Assembly: GCA_027625915.1 (NCBI GenBank)
Contig: JANTQA010000015.1
Location: 8,523,001-8,587,000, forward strand
DNA length: 64,000 nucleotides
DNA from: Anaeramoeba flamelloides
Lineage: Eukaryota; Metamonada; Anaeramoebidae
Reading direction: 5' to 3'
The translations under genes were made by a program, and so were the position numbers. The notes beneath the pieces were generated by a model, which was given only the letters and a program-made list of their open reading frames with translations, did no database searches and was not told the origin of the DNA. This document shows, one piece after another, positions 10,369 through 53,137 of this stretch; the first letter of the stretch is position 1, and every line of letters starts with the position of its first letter.

Positions 10369-11410
10369 ATGACAAATTTTGTTTATAACTTTATTTTTGA
10401 AACAACTCCTCGAAAAAGAACGAGAAATAAAACAGACGAGAACAAACAAGACAATTACAAAACTCGTAAACTCTTGAAAACCAAACAATTAACAATCGAA
10501 CCACGAACAATTAATGAAAACTCAAAACAAACCAAAAGATCTGAAAAACAAAACCAACAATTTGAAAAACAAAAACCAACACCTGTTAATTATAATTTTG
10601 TAAGGAATTGTTTTTTATTTCCATGGCATTTGATTGAAAGATTTTTTTTCAAGATAAAAAATCCAAAATCAAAATTTTTTTTCACCTTCTGAAAAGAAAA
10701 CTCAATAATTTAATTTTTTTGCAAATGCTTTTTCTTTTTCCCTGTTGTGTTCCTACTAACTTAACCACTTCAATTTCAAATAGGAGTCGTTGGTTACGAA
10801 ATTAAAAAATAGTTCCTATCGAAAACAAATCCGTCTCCTACCCGACCAGCTTCCACAAGATCAAGGCAAGCCGACACTCTGCTTGGACATGGACCAAACC
10901 TTAATTTACGCCTCATTTGAACCCCTTGTTGATTACGATTTCGTCACACACATTGCTGGCTCAAGTGATCAAATTGTCTATGTGAAAAAAAGGCCGCACT
11001 TGGAGAGCTTTTTGAAGAGGTGCTCAGAATTGTTTGAGGTTGTAATCTACACGGCGTCCGATCCTCGCTACGCTTCTCCAATTATCGACAAGATTGATCC
11101 TACGGGCGAGTACATCAGACATAGACTTTACCGCAATTGCTGCTGGGGCATCCACGACACCTACTTTTTAAAAGACTTGTCCATTTTAAATAGGGACACC
11201 TCCAAAATTATCCTCGTCGACGACAGCCCCATCTCCTTTCTTCTAAACCCAGAAAATGCTCTACAGGTCCTCGCCTTTGGTGTGGGTATTAACAAATTAA
11301 AAGACTTTTACTCACACGACAAGGAACTCCTGAGAGCTTTGTTCGTTTTGGAAAATCTTTACAAACTCCCCCTCAAAAAAAACGAAAACACTCAAACAAT
11401 TAATTTTTAA
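10369..11410 (+). CDS. FCP1/SCP-like (NIF domain) protein phosphatase
   Basis: This is a predicted HAD-superfamily phosphatase of the FCP1/SCP (CTD small phosphatase) class. Family members dephosphorylate Ser/Thr in the RNA polymerase II CTD and other nuclear targets, and the exact substrate here is unknown. Joining exon 1 (10369-10599, 77 codons) to exon 2 (10784-11410) through a phase-0 intron gives 285 residues. The first ~95 residues are basic, Lys/Asn/Thr-rich and probably disordered. The catalytic domain follows: nucleophile motif DMDQT at 112-116 (DxDxT), KRPH at 146-149, TAS at 167-169, a YFLKDL lysine near 207 and VDDSP at 222-226. All HAD signature residues are present. The ATG at 10369 opens exon 1. 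Exon 2 has no ATG near its start and an in-frame stop at the intron end, which supports the splice. No neighbouring gene is functionally linked. Confidence 0.9.
10600..10783 (+). other. Spliceosomal intron of the FCP1/SCP-like gene
   Basis: This 184-nt intron has a GTAAGG donor at 10600, a perfect TACTAAC branch-point box at 10754-10760 and a TAG acceptor ending at 10783, 23 nt downstream of the branch box. It separates codons cleanly (phase 0) and contains in-frame stops in the exon 1 frame. This is the best direct evidence in the window for the splice signals this genome uses. Confidence 0.88.
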
Positions 11411-39599: not shown

Positions 39600-40120
39600 A
39601 TTTTCTATTCAAAGGGGCTAGTTTTGGTGAGTGAATTACACATGTGTTTAAAGGGTTTGAATGGATATTAGATGAATAATTTTTTTTTGAGAAATTCCAT
39701 AATTTTGATCATTTTTTCACATTTTTTTTCTCCATTTTTTTTTGACACTTAATTCATTTGCAAATTTTTTTTTTATTATTGAAAACCGATAGTCGCTTGA
39801 TAAAAGCAGGTTATTCTAATGTTATTGATAAAGTATAAATGATTGTCGAGAAATCTATTGATTTCTATTGGAATTTTATTTGATCGTCAATTGAAGATTA
39901 AAATAAACATTGTATGTTTTTCTCAATAGGGACCCTAAGACTTTTGGGTTTTTCTATTTTTTTGAAAAACTTTTGATTTATTAGTTTTATTTCAGGCATA
40001 TATCAACCATTCTTGGATACTTTATTATTCTAACTTATCTCCTATTTAATCTTCCGAGATCATTTTCTAATAAATATTTGATATTAGAAAAAAATTTTGG
40101 TTAACTTTGACTGAAAAAAA
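39600..40120 (+). repeat. Dispersed repeat family D, copy 1
   Basis: Direct repeat of 61300-62000. Shared blocks, in order, include ACATGTGTTTAAAGGGTTTG, GGTTATTCTA/TGTTATTCTA, GAGAAATC, TTTTCTCAATAGGG, TTTATTAGTTTT and CAGGCATATATCAA. The second copy carries roughly 150 extra bases in the middle. Non-coding; family unknown. Confidence 0.6.
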
Positions 40121-41884
40121 TTTTATAATTCCAAAATTTTTAACACATTTAAAATAGTTAAAAGAACTGCTATAACAAAATTTCATTCAATTTAGAAAAT
40201 AATTTTGGATTTTTGAAAAATATGAAAATTATTTTTATAGCTTTGAGTTTTTTGTTTTCTTTTTATTTTTTGAATTACTTAACTTTCTTAGTTTGAACAA
40301 TATTTTTTTCAACAATTGGTTTTGTGTTCAAGTTAAGTTCTTCAATACAAATGAACTTAAATAAAATAAGAGAATGGTGTCTAAACATTTGATAGATTAA
40401 TTTTTCTTAATCAAATGAGCAACAAATTTATTGATATTTTTTTTTGCACTCTCTACAAAATTGTTGTCACAGTATTTATTTATTTTAATTGATAATTATT
40501 TATTTTTTTTGATTTGTGGGTATTTTAAACAATAAATAAATATTATTATTCCAATAAATTAGTGGTTCTAATTTAATTTTTTTGTATAGAATTTATCAAA
40601 TAAGATGTTTATTTTTTTTAAAAAATGAATTTTAGACGGTTAAAAAAATTTTTATTTTGTATTTGATGTAAGCAAATATTTTTTTCATTTTTTTGTCGGT
40701 TCTGTTTTGTTTTACAATTTTTTCACCAAATAACTAAATATTTTTACTCTGATCAGAAAAAGTTTTTTTTTCCAGATATTTGTTGGTGTCTAGATAATAT
40801 TTACCTTTGAAACATTCTAGTTTGAGATGAGTTTTGAATAAAAAAAAGTTATAAGCTTGGAAGATGGTATTAAACCACGTGAATAATCAATAATTGTAGG
40901 TGGTATTTCAATAAATTTGGTAATATAATTTTTTTTTCTATTTTCCAGGTGAAAAAATGATTTTAGAATTGTTATGATTTTATAATAAAATTGTGATTTA
41001 TTCATTAAAAGTGGTACTTTCTAGGTATGTACATATTGGATAGGATATCTCATAACTATATCAAATTTTTTAAGTAGCAAAAATTTCCATTTTATTAATA
41101 ATTGAAGAAGTTTGGGTTTGTTTGATTTTGAAAAAAGTATTTTCGATTATGATATGATTTTTTTACTCCAAATATCTTTCTTTCTTTTTTAAATTGAATA
41201 AATGTTACCACTAATATATTAAATATACTGATAAGTTTCTTGACCCTTGATGGTATACCCGAAAAGTATCACAGTTAATGAAAAAAGCACATTTTTGACA
41301 AAAAACAGGAAAAATACTGATAAAAACTAAATTTCATAATAAATGAACCAATTATTTTATTTTATTTTTTTCATAATATTTTTAGACTAAAAACAATATT
41401 TTAAGTGTATAGAACTGAATATTAAAATTGTAAATTTTTTATTTATAGATATCTTCGATTTATAAAAATATTTATTTTCAAAATTTGATTTTTAGTGGGT
41501 CATTTGATTTGGAAATGGAGTTTACCATAGAATTTTATTAAAAAAAATAAATAAATTTTCATTTTCCGAGCTATTGAGCAAATCCAAGAGAAGTATCACC
41601 ATTGATGAAAAAATTGCAATTTTATCAAAAAATCATGAAAATTCTACAATCATTTTTGTACTTATGTTGTTACATAAATTTTTGATCCAATATTTTTTTT
41701 TTGTTTTATTTTTACTCCCTTATTTGGCTAAAAATGATTTTTATATATACATATATATTAATAATGGATAATTTGAAGGTGATTGATAAAATAGTTTTGA
41801 AATAATCGAAAAAAAAATGATATATTATTAATTGTGTTTTATAATATTGGTTGTGTCAAAATTTTTGGTATTAATTTTATATTA

Positions 41885-42062: not shown

Positions 42063-42449
42063 AAATTGGAGAATGTATTTTAAAATTCGACTTTAGATTA
42101 ATTATTGCCATAAAGATTTCTCCCTCAAGTTAAAGGAGATCATTTGAAAAAGAACAAATTCTTTAGATGTTGATAAAATCAAATTCTCAAATAAAAATTC
42201 AACTTGTTTCCAAACAATAAAAATCCCAAATATAATTTCATTTTTTTTAATAACACATTTTTTATTTTGTTTTTTTTCAAAACAACTTAAAACAAGATAA
42301 ACCAAACACTAACTTTGTAATTTCAGTTGAATGGCTTTAAAATAATTTAAATCGGTTTAAGGTTTCCTAAATCAAAAATAAGATTGAAATTCAGAACGAA
42401 AGCCAAAACCAAAACCAAATCCAAATCCAAATAACAAACTTTTTACTTC

Positions 42450-43136
42450 ATGTCCAAAATCCAAGCTAATTTCAAATGTAATTCAAAACCGAACAAACAA
42501 ATTTTAAACAGAAAAAGAACGTATTGTAAAACAACAACCATCGGATCAGAAGAATCCCAACAACAACCAAATAAAAAAAAAATAAAAAAAAAACCCAAAA
42601 ACAAAACCAGAACAGAGAAGCAACTCTTTGAAAAAAATGTTGATGGTGAAATTGTTGACATTTTAGGGTCCATGTCAAAAAAAATGCATTCAAGGTTAAC
42701 TGAAGATCAAAAAAAACGAAGAAGGTCTTTAAAAAATAAGATAAATGCACAAAACAATCGAAATCAAAACAATAAAAAATTAATAAAGTTAGAGGATACA
42801 CTATTAGAAATTTTAAATAAGCACGAGCAGTTGAATAAAGATGTTACCAAGTTAGAACAGAATAAAGAAACTTTACAAACAGAATTAGAAAAATTGAAAA
42901 TAAAAGTCCAAATGAAACGATCAAAAAAAAAACCAAGAAATAAAAATCGAAAACAAAAAGAAAATAATAACAAAACCAAAAATCAAAAAGAAAAAGAAAT
43001 AAATCCAATTTTTGATTCATTAATACAACAAAATTTTTTTAATAGAACACACACGAAGAATGAACCCGAAAATACAAACAGAAATGAAATTGAAAATGAA
43101 ATAATTAATCAAACCATAAACCAAAATCTTCATTAA
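42450..43136 (+). CDS. bZIP transcription factor (first reading frame of a split locus)
   Basis: A 228-residue nuclear DNA-binding protein with a textbook bZIP domain. The basic region ends N96-x7-R104 (NKINAQNNR). Exactly ten residues after that Arg the zipper begins: L114, I121, L128, L135, L142, L149, six heptads without a break. bZIP proteins bind DNA as dimers. A Lys-rich N-terminal segment (41-57) and a second basic patch (156-172) could be nuclear localisation signals. The start ATG at 42450 has an in-frame TAA upstream. The frame ends at TAA 43134-43136, but the next codons continue in the same frame without another stop to 44132, encoding an acidic and transmembrane region (separate entry). 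No GT dinucleotide lies between 42908 and the stop, so an ordinary intron removing the stop would need the poor donor GTCCAA at 42906. The tail 181-228 is Asn/Glu-rich. Confidence 0.92.
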   Translation: MSKIQANFKCNSKPNKQILNRKRTYCKTTTIGSEESQQQPNKKKIKKKPKNKTRTEKQLFEKNVDGEIVDILGSMSKKMHSRLTEDQKKRRRSLKNKINAQNNRNQNNKKLIKLEDTLLEILNKHEQLNKDVTKLEQNKETLQTELEKLKIKVQMKRSKKKPRNKNRKQKENNNKTKNQKEKEINPIFDSLIQQNFFNRTHTKNEPENTNRNEIENEIINQTINQNLH

Positions 43137-44132
43137 CAGAATATTATTGGAGACTTTGATTTTGATTCCTATTTTGATTCCAATTGCATGGCCAACTCAA
43201 AAACAGATTTCAATTTAATGAGTGATATTAAAGAGATCGAAGAGTATTTGAATTTTGATGAAATAACTGATGACGATAGCATGGGATCTAGTGTATTTGA
43301 TTTTCAACAAGATTATAAAAAAGACGAAACAAAAAAAGTGAATTCAATACAAGGCTCAATAAGTGATTTATTGCCATCAATTAATGATGAATATCTTGAT
43401 GGTGAAGATGATTATGATGGTGGTGGAATATTATCCTTCTCTAAAGATGTATTTAAAAATTTTGTTGATAATTCTATTAAATTTTTAGAAAATTCATTTT
43501 CAATTCCTTCAGAAATTGGAAATGAAGAACAAGAAAAGGACAAGATCCACTCAAGTCATATTTGTAATATTAGAAATGAAAAAAAAAATAGAAACAAATC
43601 TAAATATCAATATGAAAACGAAAATGAAAATGAAAAAGAAAACGAAAACAAAAACGAAAACGAAAACGAAAACGAAAATGAAAACGAAAACAAGCATATA
43701 AATATAAAAAAAATACAGACCGCAAGTGTAAAAAATAGTGAGTCTAAAAACAAATTTGGATTTTCTCTTTTTTTTGTTTTTGTATTTCTTGCATTTTTCT
43801 CAAGTCGGTTGCCTTTTATTTCCTCACCAGAAAAATTACAACAAAATTCACCCTGGCAAAAAGGCATTTCAAATCTGAATATCTTGAATGGGTTTTCAAA
43901 AGGCATTGAAGAAACCGATGTTCCTTTACCTGGTTCAAGGAAATTAAATATGTATCAATCTGAACAAGATTTGCCTTCTGATAATGATGCAATGATGAAC
44001 AATCATCCTTTTATTCAAAGCGGGTATCTTCAACAACAAGATGAAGAAAATTCCTTATTGTGTTTGGATTCTGAATTCAATCAAATCAATAAGTGTAACC
44101 AAAATTCAACTAGTTTTAATTTTGAAAACTAA
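43137..44132 (+). CDS. Acidic, single-pass membrane reading frame in frame with the bZIP gene
   Basis: This frame follows the bZIP stop codon directly and in the same phase. The first 17 codons before the only early ATG (43188) encode an acidic, aromatic stretch (GDFDFDSYFDSN) that looks translated, suggesting the unit does not start at that ATG. Counting from the ATG (314 residues): 1-75 is acidic with Phe/Leu/Tyr (EEYLNFDEITDDDS, LLPSINDEYLDGEDD), typical of activation domains; 142-168 is an Asn/Glu repeat; about 190-212 is a single hydrophobic membrane helix (FGFSLFFVFVFLAFFSS); the last ~100 residues are polar and would be luminal. RKL at 251-253 could fit a site-1-protease-type site, but this is weak. 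A DNA-binding bZIP plus a membrane segment is the plan of ATF6/CREB3 and plant bZIP28-type stress factors. The unit could be read by stop read-through, by unconventional splicing, as a separate protein, or be the severed end of a damaged gene. Confidence 0.7.
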   Translation, partial: QNIIGDFDFDSYFDSNCMANSKTDFNLMSDIKEIEEYLNFDEITDDDSMGSSVFDFQQDYKKDETKKVNSIQGSISDLLPSINDEYLDGEDDYDGGGILSFSKDVFKNFVDNSIKFLENSFSIPSEIGNEEQEKDKIHSSHICNIRNEKKNRNKSKYQYENENENEKENENKNENENENENENENKHINIKKIQTASVKNSESKNKFGFSLFFVFVFLAFFSSRLPFISSPEKLQQNSPWQKGISNLNILNGFSKGIEETDVPLPGSRKLNMYQSEQDLPSDNDAMMNNHPFIQSGYLQQQDEENSLLCLDSEFNQINKCNQNSTSFNFEN

Positions 44133-44207
44133 TTGGCAATAAAATATAATTATTTTTTTTTAATTTCTTTATCTTTTTATCTTTTCATTTTCGATAATAT
44201 TAAACCC

Positions 44208-44730
44208 CAATTCAAAATTTTTAACACACCAAAATTCAATTTGTGAAAAAAAAAACTTATTTAATCAATTAAAGAAGAAATACCAAATTAGAACCATTCA
44301 CTAATTGAAATGTTAACACTTGTTTATAAATTACAATACTCACAAAACAATAAATAAATAATTATCAATACAAATAAATCTAGGGTGTGTTAAAAATTTT
44401 GGAGAGAGCAAAACAAAAAAATACATTAGTAAATTTGTTGAAATTCTATTAGGAATATTGATCGATCAAATGTTTAGATACTACCAACTAATTTTATATG
44501 AGTTCTTCCATTTATACAATTCGACTTTAACATAATATCGATGGTTGAAAAAATTTTTTGATCCAACGAAACAAATTACGTAATTCAAACAATGAAATGA
44601 AAACAAAAACTAAAAAGATGAAAAAATGATTTTCATAACTTACAAAAATCAAAATTTTCTCAAATTTGAATGAAATTGTATTATTACGATTGTTTGGAAC
44701 GTTTTATCTGTGTGGAAAATTTTGAATTTT
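44208..44730. mobile_element. Tc1-like non-autonomous element relic
   Basis: End-type sequences AATTCAAAATTTTTAACACACC at the left and TGTGTGGAAAATTTTGAATTTTAG at the right are inverted relatives. Another end-like motif (GTGTGTTAAAAATTTTGG) sits at about 44386. The interior (TGATCGATCAAATG, GATACTACCAACTAATT, TTTTTTGATCCAA) aligns with 56740-56890. The end sequences resemble those of the Tc1 relic at 51.6 kb (TTCCAAAAATTGGGGCACAC). No transposase was recognised. Confidence 0.5.
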
Positions 44731-46800
44731 AGTTTATATTTTCAATAAATTTTCGAAACATATGAAATTATTTTATATATTTGTTATGGTTTTCAATCAC
44801 AAATTTCAATTAAAATTAATAATTTAACTGTTAAATTTTACGAAATATTGTGCGGTCTCGCGTGGTAGGTGCATTTTACCATTTTTAAAATTTTAATTGC
44901 AAAAACCATACTGAAAAATATTTTTTTGAGTAGTATGGGAGATTGAAACTTTGAAAATTAAACTGTATTAGTTGCCCTATTTGTGAAGAGGGGGGGAATG
45001 AATCAGAGTTGAATCTTTATATTTTGAATTTTTTGAACATTTTTTTTTATTAAATTTTTGATTTTATAAATGTAGGTTTTGGATCCAAGAAATATGTGTC
45101 TATGGGTTCTTGAAATGAACTAAGGCATAAATCAAAAAAATGAACAAGGGAAGGTTGAATTTTGAACTAATCCTAAGTTTTTTACTATCAAATAAGAAAG
45201 ATTTAACAATTTCAAATACATTTTTATAATCAATAAACTCAAAAAAATAACCAATACTTTAGTAGAAATGGATATGAAATCATAAAATTTTCTATAGAAT
45301 AAATTTAAATCGCATAATTTTTTTTTTGCTTTGGAATTTCACTATTATCCCAATAAAATTTTATTTGATGAATTTTGATGGTATTTTTCTCAACCTATTC
45401 CTCAGAAAATCCTTAATTTTTCAAGGAAGGCCCAATACAATTTTTTTTTTTTTTTTTCAATTAAATTACAATACAATTATTTTTATAATTATGGTAAATT
45501 TTCATCAGAATGTGATAACAGTTTCAAATAGTAAAAGTAGAATATGGAAAATAAAATAAATTATTGATCTTAATAAAAACTGTAAACCACTTTAACAAAT
45601 TGGTATCTACTTAAGTTGAAAAAAAAAAAATATTTTTTATCTTTAATTATGTTTACATTTAATATAATTCATTAATTGTTATATTCTGACTGATTATTCA
45701 GTTATTCGATTAATTAATGAAAAAAAAATAAATATTTACAACTTTTTATTTTTTCTGTTTTGTGATTTTTGTGATCATTTTTTTATTTAATTGTAAAATA
45801 AATATGTGTTTGATATTTGAATTAATTTAATTACTTTTTTTTTGGTTTTCTTTTTTTTTTCCTATAATAACAAAAAATTGTCTAAAAATAATAAAAAAAA
45901 AAAAGAAAATAAATTTCAAAATAAAATTATAGATAGAAACAGCAGTTACCAAATTAAATTTCCATATTTATAAAAAAAAAACTTTTTTAAATAGTCATAT
46001 TATAATACATTACGACAATTCTATCATAATACTTTTTTATTATTGCATTTTTATTGGTAATTTTTTTCTTTCGTGAAACAATCCAAAAATAAATATCCCC
46101 TTTGGAAATACAATAAATTTTCATTTATTTTTCTCATATTTATTTTTCTTTTGTATCCCAAAATTTTAGATTTAATTCATTTAATTCCCAGGTAACTTCT
46201 ATTTAATATTTTAATTAATAGTTGATTCTATTTAATTAAAAATGGACCTAAGTTTTTCAAATTAAATATCGTTTTACTTTTATAAAACTTCCTTAAAAAA
46301 TTTCCACAACTTCTTATTATTTTATTTTTTATGTTAGTATTTGTGTATTTTTCGTTTTTTGTTTCTTCATTGTCTTCTTTTCATGACCTGAATAAAAAAA
46401 CCGTTGTATCATATTTCTCAACAGATTCCTATTTATATTTTTAAAATTTTCAAGCTCTTTTTTACTTATTGATTTAAAAAAAAAACTTAGACAAAGAATA
46501 CACTAATCAAATTACTTATAAATACAAAATATGGTTTGAAAAAAAAAAAAAAAAAAAGTGTATATATTAAATTCTTTGATCAAAAAAAAAAAAAAAACAA
46601 AGAGATTCAACGATAAAGGGAAGAGGTTGAATTCTTGAAATAATAAAACAACAACAAATACCAACTAACAGAAAAAAAAAAAATACATAAATTAAAAGTA
46701 AAAATTCATAATTAACATGATTAATACAATTAGATGGAAAATTAATAATCTAAAATAAAATAAAACCGATCAATAAATCTAAACCTCATCTCACTAAAAG

Positions 46801-47438: not shown

Positions 47439-50312
47439 TTAAAAATTCCATAACAAATCACGAATTTTCACTGTGTTTAATAATAAAATAAGTAAGGGAG
47501 TTTTTTTTTTAGAATTGGTTAAGTTTATATTGGCACCGAGTTGTATTAATAATTTAATTAAAGCTATGTTTGGTTTTTCGTTTTGGCAAGAAAAGTGAAA
47601 GGGTGAAAGTTTATTAAGGTTTGGTTCATTAACATTGGCGCCGCTTTGGATTAAATACTTTACGATTTGCAAATTGGGGCATTCCAGTTTGCAAATAAAA
47701 TGTAGAGGTGTATTAAAGCGGTGGTCTTTCATATTAATTTTTGCACCATTTTCGATACAGTATTGGATCATTGGTAAAGCGGTGTTTTCATTTCGGCAAA
47801 GCGAATGTAAAGGCGTCATTTTTTCGCCGACTGAGGGCACATTGGGATCAGATTTATTATCGATAAACAATTTAATTAATTCAAATGAGGGGTTAGTTTT
47901 GTTACAAATGTAACCGAGGGGTGTCAATTGTTTGCTTTTTTCTGGGTTTACGGATGCGCCCTTCTGAATCAAATAATTTACGGTTTCAAAAGAGGGGTTT
48001 GACTTTGAAGCGACTTGGTGCAGCATGGTTAAATTGTTTTCGTCCTTGACAGTGACGTCTGCGCCGTTTTCGACCAATAATTCGATAATTTCCAAATTAG
48101 GATCTTCTCTCATGCAAATCATGTATAAGGGTGTGGTTAAATCCTTTTTTTTAGCGTTGAGGTTTGCACCTTTTTCAATAAAGTATTTGATCAGATCAAT
48201 GCTTGGGTTTGGGTGGTAGCAAAGGAAATGCAAGGGTGTCCAGAGGGTATTCTTAGTCACTGCATTAATATCGGCCTTATTTTCGATCAAATATTTGATC
48301 AAATCCATTGGCGGGTTCTCCCGGTTGCAAAGTCGATGCAGGGGGGTTTCGTCGTCTTGGTCTTTCAGATTAGGGTTTGCGCCATTTGCGATCAAGTATT
48401 TGGCAATTTCCATTGGCGGGCTGTCGTTATTACAAAGGAAATGGAGAGAGGAGGATAAAAAGCTATCAGTTTGGGCATTAACATCGGCGCCATTTGAAAC
48501 AAATAATTTGAAGATTTCCAAATTTGGTTTCTTTTCTGTGGAAATTAAATGAAGAGGGGTGATCCCTTTGGAATCAAATAATTTGACATTTGCGCCATTT
48601 GCGATCAAATATTTTAAAAGCTCAAGGTTTGGGTTGGTGTGCCTGCAAATATAAATCAGTGGGGTGAGTTGTTCACTATCAACACAATTAACATCTGCCC
48701 CATTTTCAATTAATAATTTGATCAATTTGATGGACAATTTTTCTTGGTTGCAAAGAAAATGCAAAGGTGTTGATTGCTCGTTTTCGGTTTTCATATTTAT
48801 TTTGGCGCCATTTTGGATAAAGTATTCCATCGACTGGTAAATGATTTCTTTGTCCTTTAAATTACAAAGTAAATGTAAAGAGGTGAGCCCATTTTTCATT
48901 TGAGAATTGACATCGATGCCGTTTTCAATTAACAATTTCCTGGCCTGTAACGAATTGTCGTTATAGCAGAGCAAATGTAGTGCGTTTGCCTTTTGGCTCG
49001 TAATCAAATTTAAATCGATACCCTTCTCAATAAAATACTCGATTAACCCGAGATTAGGATCTGCATAATAACACAAATTGTGGAGAATTGTGAACCCGTG
49101 GGAGTCTTGCAAATTGATATTGGCTCCGTTTTCAATCAGGTATTTGATGATTTCCACGTTGGGGTTCTTTCTATGTGACACCCAATGAAGAACAGACCTC
49201 TTGGTGACATGCGTTTGTGCATTGATGTCACATCCCAAGGCAACCAAATATTTAATAACCTCAAATTTTGGATTTTCCTGCTTCGCTACAGTATGCAAAA
49301 TGGTAAATTTCAAAACATCCTTGGCATTGATTTTGTAATTTTTCTTGACAAAATACTTGATGACATCCAAGGACGCATGCTTTAAGCCACAATAAAAATG
49401 CAGCGCAGTCCTGTTGCTTCCCAGAGTTGTCGCGTTTACATTTGCCCCTCTCCCAATTAAATACGTGATGTCTTTAAATGTTGCGCTGTCTGTTGATGTC
49501 AGATCTTCACGGAGGGCAAGTAAATGTAATGGTGTCAGCTTTAAGTACATTTTGCAATTCACGTCTGCTCCGCGGGAGCACAAATTCCGAAGCCACTGCC
49601 CAGTTAAATTGGTTTTCCTTTTTTTTTCATCATAGAGACAGACACCATGTAAGCCCGTTGCCTTTGTGGAGCTGTCTAAGGACTTTGTTGCAATGTTGTC
49701 CACTTTTTGGTTGTTATTATTTTGCTTGTTGCCTTTGTTTTTTGTATTCTTACGATTTCGGTTTTTGTTTTTGTTTTTGCCTTTGTTTCTGTTTGCATAA
49801 AAGACATTGTTTAATTGACTGGCCTTCCCGTACAATATCGTGTTCCATAATTTTAAAAAGGTATTGCCCTTATTGGTTTTTTTTGTACATTGGTGTTCTA
49901 AAAACTTGACAAGCACTTTCTTCATCAAAGATTGGAATTGAGACAATTCCAACAGCAAAATACAAGACCTTTTGTTTTGATCATTAATAAAGGGATTCGC
50001 TCCCTTGGAAACTAAATAAATCATTACCTCTTCATGCTCGGGTGTAAACTCTTCTAATTTATTACAAAGAACCAAGATCGGTGTTGCTTTGTCGTGCTGT
50101 GGATCCGGGATATTTAAGTCTGCTCCTAATGAGACCAATTTTTGAAAGGCTTTTAATTCTGGGCACTTGTGCTGAGAACATAGCCAATGAAGCCTTGTTC
50201 TATAGCTTTCAAAGTTGTTGTTCACAGTTTGTTTGGTTAATTGTGCTTGGATTTCTTTTAAATAGTCGATTTTTCTATTTCGTAAAAAAAATTCTTCATC
50301 GTCAAGTTCCAT
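47439..50312 (-). CDS. Ankyrin-repeat protein, ~24 repeats
   Basis: A 957-residue single-exon protein built almost wholly of ankyrin repeats, i.e. a protein-interaction scaffold. I start at the ATG at 50312 (MELDDEEFF), since the frame continues upstream without an ATG. Two or three diverged repeats form the N-terminal block (LHWLCSQHKC, LVSLGADLNIPD, LVSKGANPFIND). A Lys/Asn-rich linker (about residues 177-215, KNKNRNRKN type) follows, then a near-continuous array of about 21 repeats to the C-terminus. The repeats follow TPLHxLCxxxNPNLEIIKYLIENGADVNxxD, with Cys after LHxL and Asn-Pro between helices as unusual constant features. No kinase, SOCS, BTB or membrane domain is attached. The repeats are diverged at DNA level, so the array is not a recent tandem expansion. 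Regulation is not visible. Confidence 0.95.
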   Translation of the reverse strand: MELDDEEFFLRNRKIDYLKEIQAQLTKQTVNNNFESYRTRLHWLCSQHKCPELKAFQKLVSLGADLNIPDPQHDKATPILVLCNKLEEFTPEHEEVMIYLVSKGANPFINDQNKRSCILLLELSQFQSLMKKVLVKFLEHQCTKKTNKGNTFLKLWNTILYGKASQLNNVFYANRNKGKNKNKNRNRKNTKNKGNKQNNNNQKVDNIATKSLDSSTKATGLHGVCLYDEKKRKTNLTGQWLRNLCSRGADVNCKMYLKLTPLHLLALREDLTSTDSATFKDITYLIGRGANVNATTLGSNRTALHFYCGLKHASLDVIKYFVKKNYKINAKDVLKFTILHTVAKQENPKFEVIKYLVALGCDINAQTHVTKRSVLHWVSHRKNPNVEIIKYLIENGANINLQDSHGFTILHNLCYYADPNLGLIEYFIEKGIDLNLITSQKANALHLLCYNDNSLQARKLLIENGIDVNSQMKNGLTSLHLLCNLKDKEIIYQSMEYFIQNGAKINMKTENEQSTPLHFLCNQEKLSIKLIKLLIENGADVNCVDSEQLTPLIYICRHTNPNLELLKYLIANGANVKLFDSKGITPLHLISTEKKPNLEIFKLFVSNGADVNAQTDSFLSSSLHFLCNNDSPPMEIAKYLIANGANPNLKDQDDETPLHRLCNRENPPMDLIKYLIENKADINAVTKNTLWTPLHFLCYHPNPSIDLIKYFIEKGANLNAKKKDLTTPLYMICMREDPNLEIIELLVENGADVTVKDENNLTMLHQVASKSNPSFETVNYLIQKGASVNPEKSKQLTPLGYICNKTNPSFELIKLFIDNKSDPNVPSVGEKMTPLHSLCRNENTALPMIQYCIENGAKINMKDHRFNTPLHFICKLECPNLQIVKYLIQSGANVNEPNLNKLSPFHFSCQNEKPNIALIKLLIQLGANINLTNSKKKTPLLILLLNTVKIRDLLWNF

Positions 50313-53137
50313 TTTGGTGTATGTTTTGTTTGGTTTTTTTTTTTGTTGCAAAAAAATAACAAGAAAAAGAAAAAAAAAATGAAAAAGAGTACTAGAATCT
50401 AAAATATTATCGAAGAGTTGTTTTGAGATTTTATTGCTTTTTTTTGAAGATTATAATATTTTTGAAGAAACTTTTTTTTTTAATTTTTGTGAATTGAATA
50501 ACAGAAAGACACAAAGAGATTGAAGTTTTTATATAGTGTTGTTCTAAAAAATGGTTTCTATTTGTTGAGTAGTGTTTGTTTAATTTATTTTTCATTTTTG
50601 GATGACTAATAGATCAACAAAATACTTTTCTGGTTGTGAGATTTATTTTATAAGAGTTGCGAAAACAACTCTAATTAGAAATCAAAGAAAAAAAGAATTC
50701 AAATGGGATAGTGTGAAGCAAAAAGAGATGATGTTTGGATGTTTTTTGGCATAATATTTCTTAATTTGATATTATTGTTTGTTGATTTTTAACTCTGATT
50801 TATTTTTTTTTTTTCACAAAAGGTAATTGAGTAATTATTTTCTCAAAGGTGGGATAATTAAAATTAGATAAACATGCTCAATTTATCAACTTGAGGAGAT
50901 TATATATCATTTTACAAAGAATTCATTTTAACCAATTATTTTTTCAGTAAAAAAGTTTTTGATTCTTTTTTAGACCAAATTTTATATCAAAATAAAAAAT
51001 TGATGTATATACCAAAGATTTTTAATTTGAAAAAATCTGACTTTTAGTAATTTTCGAGAGTCTGTATTCACAAATAACTTTAAATATATATTTTTATTTT
51101 AAAAATACAATAAAAATAAATTGATTATTGAATCATTGAAGATAAGAAAAAATTGATCTTTTATATTATTTTCAAATATTATTTCAATTTCTTGAAATTT
51201 AAAGACTAGGCAATATTTTTTTTTTAACTATTCAGAATATCAACAAGAAACTAATAAGTATTATAATCAGATATTTTTGGTATATATATATATATATATA
51301 TTATTATTATTATTTTATTTTGAATTATTTGTTCTTGTTTGAAAATATTTAAATATTTAAGAAATATTAGTAAAATCTATTGCTACTTTAGTGTCTTTTT
51401 GAAATTACCTCCCACTGAAATAATTCAGATTGTATTATCTATTATTAATTATGAAATAATCAAATAGAATAGAATTCCTTTATTCGTATAAGTTGAATTG
51501 TTCTGGCTTTAAAAAAGTTTTTTTGGGAGAATTTTTAGCTGAGGGGGTTGATGGTGTTTTTATCAAATATATATCTTGACAAAAAGAAAAAATTGGTAAG
51601 AAAAATAAACTGAATAAAGAAATATATATATATATATATAAACTCAATTCCAAAAATTGGGGCACACCTTCAAAATCAATTTAATTCCAAGAAAAGTCAT
51701 ATTTGACTCTTAAATAGAAACATTAGATATTAACAATCAATGTAAATAATTTTAAAGTTAATTATTTATCATTTTTTTTCATTATTTTTTGATTTTTGAT
51801 TTTCAATAATTTTTTTGATTTTTTTTGTATTGTTTTTTTTTTCAAAACTTTTCGAAAATCTCAAAATCACTTTAAAATGAAATTTAAAAGTATTCATTCT
51901 GATCACAAAAAAAATTTTTTTTTTTTTCTCTCAAAAAGTAAAAAGTTTCTTTTTTTATCGAGAAAATATTTTTTTGAAAAAAAATCATGATATGGGGTGC
52001 TAGGACACATGGCCTACAAACAGACCTTATTATTATTAATGGAAGTGTGAATACTGAATGTATTATTAATGATATTATCAAAAAAAATCAAATGTAATTC
52101 AACTGGCTAATTCAGAATATAGTGAGTTGAAATGGATTTTCCAAAAGGATGGAGCTTGTCCACATACCTCAAAAAAAAAAACACAAACTTACTTAAACCG
52201 GGGATTTAATGTTCTGGACCCTTGACCCCCAATTCCACAAGATTTAAACCCAATTGGGAATTTATGGATACTAAACTGAAAAATTGTAACCAAAAAACGA
52301 AGAAGAATTTTTAAAATTTTCACTAATGTATGAAATACTTTGAGTTGGGAAACCTAAGATAATTAGTAAACTCTATATTTTAAAGGATAGATTTAGTTAT
52401 CAAAAGACAAGCTGAATCTATTAATGGTTTTTATTAATTTTTCTTTCAATAAAAATGGATTTTTTGGTAACCGTGTTCCAAAAATAGGGGCACACTTTTT
52501 TTTCTTTTTTCTTTTTTATTTTTCGAATTGAATGTTAAATTTACTATAAAATATATAAATAGTATTAATTAAATATTTTCAGGTCTTTTATTATTTTAAT
52601 GTTCAAGTATTGTGTATTTTGAAGTATATTTTTATTAATGTAATTTTTTTTTTGTGTCCCATTTTTTGGAATTGATTTTATATATATATATATAAATATA
52701 AAACGGGTAATAATAATTACATTGTTTTCAAATAAAGTATTTTGCTTTTATAAAAAGTTCTTTTTAAATATAGTTGTATTATTTTTATACATTATTTAAG
52801 TACACTTTCTTCAAAGGTAATATGATTTCTTTCTCATTTTTAATAAAAATAAATTTTTCTTAAAGAATTTGAAACAATACTGATATTTAAAATTTTGAAA
52901 AATGTGAAAAATTGTATCTAACTTTTTAAACTGAGAATTCATTTAGGAGAATGACATAATAGGAAGTTTGGTCTTGTCATAATCAGATTTTTAATCTATT
53001 TTAACGAATTAACGATGTATAAAATTTTTTTATGAATTCACTATTATAATTTCTTGTTTTATTTTTATTTTAGGTTGATGGTAGTTTAAAAACTAATGTC
53101 ACATACCATCATTTGTTACAAATGATACACCTGGCCC

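Follow-up and report, generated by a model that had tools for sequence, protein, structure and literature searches.

The two-frame locus

The window analysed here is a stretch of 64,000 nucleotides (C1:8523001-8587000 of a searched genome of 254 Mb on 76 contigs) with an A+T content of about 77%. On its forward strand an ORF of 228 amino acids, starting with the ATG at 42450, is followed in the same phase by an open frame of 331 codons (43137-44132) that closes with a TAA of its own, and a single TAA separates the two (table 1). These coordinates confirm a sequence-only reading of the same DNA, which had described two long frames split by one stop. That reading had also considered a stop-free extension of about 330 codons unlikely without selection, and base shuffling agrees with it: 2000 shuffles of 43137-44129 contained a mean of 30 and a minimum of 14 in-frame stops compared to none in the real stretch, and the open second frame is therefore not a product of chance. 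The other two forward frames of 43137-44129 contain 15 and 51 stops. The acidic region, the Asn/Glu linker, one hydrophobic helix and the polar tail are all present as described, the helix of the window copy being called by eye and by conservation.

Table 1. Features of the two-frame locus, with positions in the window.
Feature	Position	Strand	Basis or remark
ORF1, soluble 228-aa bZIP protein up to the copy-specific TAA	42450..43136	+	ORF and uninterrupted homologues L009, L010, L011
Basic region, N-x3-A-x3-R core	42711..42779	+	N, A and R invariant in 16 paralogues
Leucine zipper, heptad L/I/L/L/L/L	42789..42908	+	Spacing
In-frame TAA	43134..43136	+	Glutamate codon in this column in 3/3 close paralogues
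Interval from stop to second new ATG	43137..43217	+	Nonsynonymous change on the window branch highest here
Gained ATG, first possible ORF2 start	43188..43190	+	Ile, Thr, Ile codons in sisters
Second gained ATG	43218..43220	+	Ile, Asn, Asn codons in sisters
Acidic region	43221..43610	+	Lies where the window branch remains constrained
Asn/Glu repeat linker	43611..43694	+	Variable among paralogues
Membrane helix	43755..43811	+	Conserved in the family
Putative lumenal RKLN	43938..43949	+	Fits RX(L/I/V)Z; Z not the preferred Leu or Lys
Near-C-terminal N-glycosylation sequon NST	44103..44111	+	Common to the three sisters
Duplicated unit in common with L009	~42128..44195	+	84% nucleotide identity, including ~300 nt of 5′ noncoding sequence

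Some further regions of the window were noted. The stretches 44197-44743 and 40113-40646 are 87% and 72% identical, respectively, to one stretch beside the paralogue L011 (L011:1601-2147) and probably belong to a dispersed repeat. The longest ORF of the window (47439-50351, minus strand, 970 amino acids) is ankyrin-repeat-like, with repeats read by eye, and 10784-11410 resembles an exon of an FCP1/CTD-phosphatase (DMDQT motif, by eye), with a branch-point-like CTACTAAC and an ATAG acceptor ahead of it.

A family of ATF6-like bZIP proteins

ORF1 shows the spacing N-x7-R-x9-L-x6-I-x6-L-x6-L-x6-L-x6-L, and the basic-region N, A and R together with three zipper leucines are invariant across 16 aligned paralogues (window copy left out). 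The "perfect bZIP" of the sequence-only reading holds for this spacing but not for the basic region, as none of the Pfam bZIP models matched the window protein at E<=1. The three closest paralogues (L009, L010 and L011, here called sisters) gave sub-threshold matches to bZIP_Maf (E 0.002-0.04), and all seven of the more distant paralogues scanned exceeded a Pfam bZIP cut-off. Judged by these matches the family can be classed as bZIP, the window copy through spacing and homology only. The nearest solved bZIPs to one paralogue, L013, were ATF-2 and FosB, with weak E-values of 0.004-0.007.

Beyond the bZIP, the family looks ATF6-like, with one transmembrane (TM) helix and a lumenal RX(L/I/V)Z motif. 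A conserved hydrophobic helix C-terminal of the bZIP was recognised by motif and by eye in 14 of the 16 aligned paralogues; L014 and L015 are without it. Candidate RX(L/I/V)Z sites, identified by motif, occur in the putative lumenal tails of all 14 TM-bearing members, which we grouped into five subfamilies and for which shuffling gave a chance of 0.11-0.47 per tail, and lumenal sequons occur in 13. The likeness to ATF6 is one of architecture. The preferred Leu or Lys at position Z is found in just seven of the 14 members, and the RKLN of the window has neither. Both proteases that release ATF6, CREB3 and plant bZIP17-bZIP28 are encoded in this genome. For S1P there are four loci with MBTPS1_3rd, and the one compared matches the solved S1P 8uwc (E 1e-232). 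For S2P we found four M50 loci above the cut-off with NxxPCxxxDG, and HExxH was seen in both of those retrieved with wider flanks; in-frame stops in three of the four M50 matches were taken as introns. One S2P-type M50 locus (L052, C24:9279830-9280744) lies ~2.7 kb from the tethered bZIP gene L010, possibly by chance.

The sequence-only reading had suggested that both frames together would form a membrane-tethered transcription factor, and the uninterrupted close paralogues do display this architecture, with an S1P-type site. Like ATF6, CREB3 and plant bZIP17-bZIP28, the family carries its bZIP N-terminal to one TM and an RX(L/I/V)Z-containing lumenal tail. The window subfamily differs from these by an acidic region between bZIP and TM, and the window copy by being cut before the TM, so that its ORF1 product lacks the tether. 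No description of an ATF6-like tethered bZIP family in metamonads was seen among the papers listed, and bZIP, transcription factor, unfolded and S1P are all absent as words from the main text of PMC11550330, on the genomes of Anaeramoeba. What our data point to is an expanded ATF6-like family of this kind, together with S1P, S2P and IRE1-like proteins, in what is probably an anaerobic metamonad.

The stop codon is specific to one copy

Searched against the same genome, the first half of the locus gave 28 matches including itself. The closest were at C13:1034233 (81% identity), C24:9275477 (74%) and C24:16508506 (71% and 68% in two pieces), and the second half matched the same three loci at 63-77%. 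Each of these three paralogues has one uninterrupted frame of 560-587 codons; the sequence-only reading had named an uninterrupted frame in a related genome as an observation that would remove any special mechanism, and here such frames are found in paralogues within the same genome. In the codon alignment, which is free of gaps around the site, all three sisters have glutamate opposite the TAA. Immediately before the stop position NEIENEIINQTINQ is conserved. The codon adjoining the TAA also differs between the sisters and the window copy. Neither ATG 43188 nor ATG 43218 is present in any of the three. Given the glutamate in all gap-free sisters, and with bZIP and TM in one frame in all 14 TM-bearing paralogues aligned, the TAA of the window is most likely young and copy-specific. 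A search of viral contigs for relatives gave 73 pattern matches, none of which was a relative.

Eleven of the 14 TM-bearing paralogues are whole from ATG to stop. The other three (L012, C13:5274500-5280500; L019, C76:3240000-3246000; L020, C1:10132500-10138500) have one frame change each near the N-terminus, each of the two pieces being 75-88% identical to the closest relative and bZIP and TM remaining in one frame; decay, an unseen intron or an assembly error may account for these changes. Those of L012 and L020 lie in or beside A runs. With the window copy counted in, four of 15 family members thus carry exactly one lesion, which indicates either frequent young decay or assembly errors. Among the subtilase matches, one of 41 has an in-frame TAA.

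Selection on the downstream frame

In a four-taxon codon model the downstream frame evolved on the window branch with an omega of 0.25, the same as on the other branches (2dlnL 0.08), and omega=1 was rejected (2dlnL 10.4). This model and the absence of further stops limit any neutral terminal part of the window branch to about a tenth of its length or less, which fits a young lesion. As a scan for open frames finds only young lesions, constraint of this kind is also how an ordinary recent nonsense change would appear. Relaxation of the whole downstream frame was considered on the basis of parsimony (35 nonsynonymous to 13 synonymous changes versus 24 to 19, p 0.12) and rejected, since the codon model disagreed; the hint is due to the 28 codons that follow the stop.

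Of a pseudogene, relaxed constraint would be expected after the lesion unless the lesion is young; the downstream frame is constrained apart from this post-stop interval. Here the window branch has 11 nonsynonymous and one synonymous change versus one of each on the sister branch (Fisher test of the interval versus the remaining downstream codons, window versus L009, p 0.018). With the Asn/Glu linker excluded from the scan, these 28 codons are the densest in nonsynonymous change on the window branch and begin exactly at the stop. A peak at this position has a chance of between 0.0005 (uniform) and 0.002 (with weighting by variability), an equal peak anywhere on the branch one of 0.05-0.12. The same test gave p 1.0 versus L010, p 0.41 versus L011 and p 0.10 for the three branches pooled, and the L010 branch is likewise variable in the interval, with five nonsynonymous changes. 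With region-specific omegas, the interval had values of 0.72-0.76 (2dlnL 3.15); past the second ATG omega was about 0.2, and omega=1 was rejected for this part (2dlnL 53, shared branch lengths). The cluster holds with either outgroup; its boundary was noticed before being tested, and its statistics are only suggestive. The first 17 post-stop codons, which to the sequence-only reading looked selected for translation, fall within this densest window and have seven nonsynonymous and no synonymous changes on the window branch. The ATG that follows them is found in no sister. That claim is not confirmed.

Splicing, read-through and recoding

Intron boundaries were compared with those of a ribosomal protein gene. 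The Anaeramoeba genome paper (PMC11550330) describes three protists as free-living, the genomes as AT-rich, and A. flamelloides as having more than 1100 ribosomal-protein genes versus 82 in A. ignava. For RPS23 we found 13 gene copies on 13 contigs (L060-L072; 26 exon matches), a multiplicity that makes A. flamelloides the probable source of the genome searched; in this single gene family an intron starting with GTAAG lies at the same place in all 12 copies parsed from the 13 loci retrieved. A likely GTAAA donor was additionally seen by eye in L023. The only GTA or GTG sites of ORF1 are at 42478, 42521, 42526 and 42646, all before the basic region and none of them GTAAG, and no likely donor was found between the bZIP and the stop. 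The site GTAAAACA at 42526 resembles the donor of L023, and splicing from this site to 43139 would delete the bZIP. At the stop itself (43133-43139) two codon changes have given rise to TTAACAG, a sequence similar to a 3′ splice acceptor, and in transcripts that start or are spliced here ATG 43188 would be the first start. A sigma-70 promoter scan gave numbers at chance level and was set aside, the model not being applicable to a eukaryote.

The motif for IRE1-type mRNA cleavage is CNG-CNG. The genome encodes two IRE1-like kinase-RNase proteins, and a sequence motif scan for CNGCNG gave no match in 42450-44132. The locus is similar to HAC1, XBP1 and bZIP60 in that a bZIP is followed by a second frame in a genome with IRE1-like proteins, but it differs from them in having no IRE1-type site and in having three sisters with one open frame. 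Since the sister sequences show the codons flanking the stop to be coding, these scans disfavour splicing, both by an intron hiding the TAA, for which the sister frames would be expected to show a gap and ORF1 a GTAAG donor, and by IRE1. A recoded TAA was rejected because TAA closes 15 of 16 aligned family frames (L017 closes with TGA). For programmed read-through the stop should be conserved among homologues, and all three sisters are without it. The regulated switch that the sequence-only reading had put forward as its most exciting option is therefore not borne out, and its plain options, namely a recent null mutation, a two-protein transcript and a sequencing error, are what remains.

Origin of the interrupted copy

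We think it fairly probable that the window gene is an ATF6-like tethered bZIP gene that was truncated recently and in this copy alone. After duplication of such a gene, one copy would have gained a nonsense substitution that cuts the bZIP off from the half with the acidic region, TM and lumenal tail. Going by their architecture and the parts list of the genome, the intact relatives would reside in the ER, their bZIP facing the cytosol, until S1P and then S2P release them. The window copy would give a soluble, unanchored bZIP of 228 amino acids that has neither acidic region nor TM nor lumenal tail. The gene may be decaying, or its product may be a constitutively soluble factor able to dimerise with its sisters or compete against them. 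A soluble product is plausible given that TM-less family members exist. We infer here that the TAA base is real and the change recent, as well as how the product acts. Two observations speak against truncation: the nonsynonymous cluster between the stop and the second gained ATG is not expected of a stop that is simply recent, and the frame changes in L012, L019 and L020 could point to assembly errors.

That same cluster is the main argument for gene fission, a reading that we consider unlikely. The locus would then encode a soluble bZIP (ORF1) and an acidic membrane protein without DNA-binding domain, releasable by S1P/S2P (ORF2), which would start at ATG 43188 or 43218 through its own transcript start or through re-initiation. 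With both halves under selection, the codons between them would drift as a spacer, in line with a cluster that starts at the stop with either outgroup, with the constraint kept past the second ATG and with both ATGs being derived. However, the interval is naturally variable, the tests for a peak anywhere and for interval-specific omegas are weaker, the boundary had been seen beforehand, and re-initiation past an ORF of 228 codons is inefficient. If true, fission would mean that a membrane sensor-transcription factor was caught early in splitting, with intact sisters remaining for comparison. An error in assembly or base calling, or a minor allele, with the real gene uninterrupted like its sisters, appears quite improbable. 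It would account for a downstream constraint equal to that of the sisters, and long-read errors fall in A runs, where two of the three frame changes among the 14 TM-bearing relatives are found; these lesions make an error slightly likelier, and truncation and fission slightly less likely. Yet the lesion of the window is a substitution and no homopolymer indel, the neighbouring codon differs too, and the post-stop cluster is left unexplained. Least credible, and in our view very unlikely, is that read-through or conditional splicing, spliceosomal or by IRE1, yields soluble and tethered forms from one gene. Nothing but the constrained downstream frame favours read-through, and constraint is weakest in the codons after the stop, where a read-through product would lead one to expect the reverse. 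For splicing there are the IRE1-like proteins and the acceptor-like sequence created at the stop, against which stand the position and sequence of the candidate donors, the loss of the bZIP with the one possible intron and the missing CNGCNG.

For the truncation favoured here there is a precedent in Arabidopsis NTL5, where, according to PMC9237531, a natural single-nucleotide variant of Col-0 places a premature stop ahead of the TMD; the factor thereby loses its tether and is permanently nuclear. NTL5 is a NAC protein and its variant acts via intron retention, whereas the window copy is a bZIP with a direct nonsense codon.
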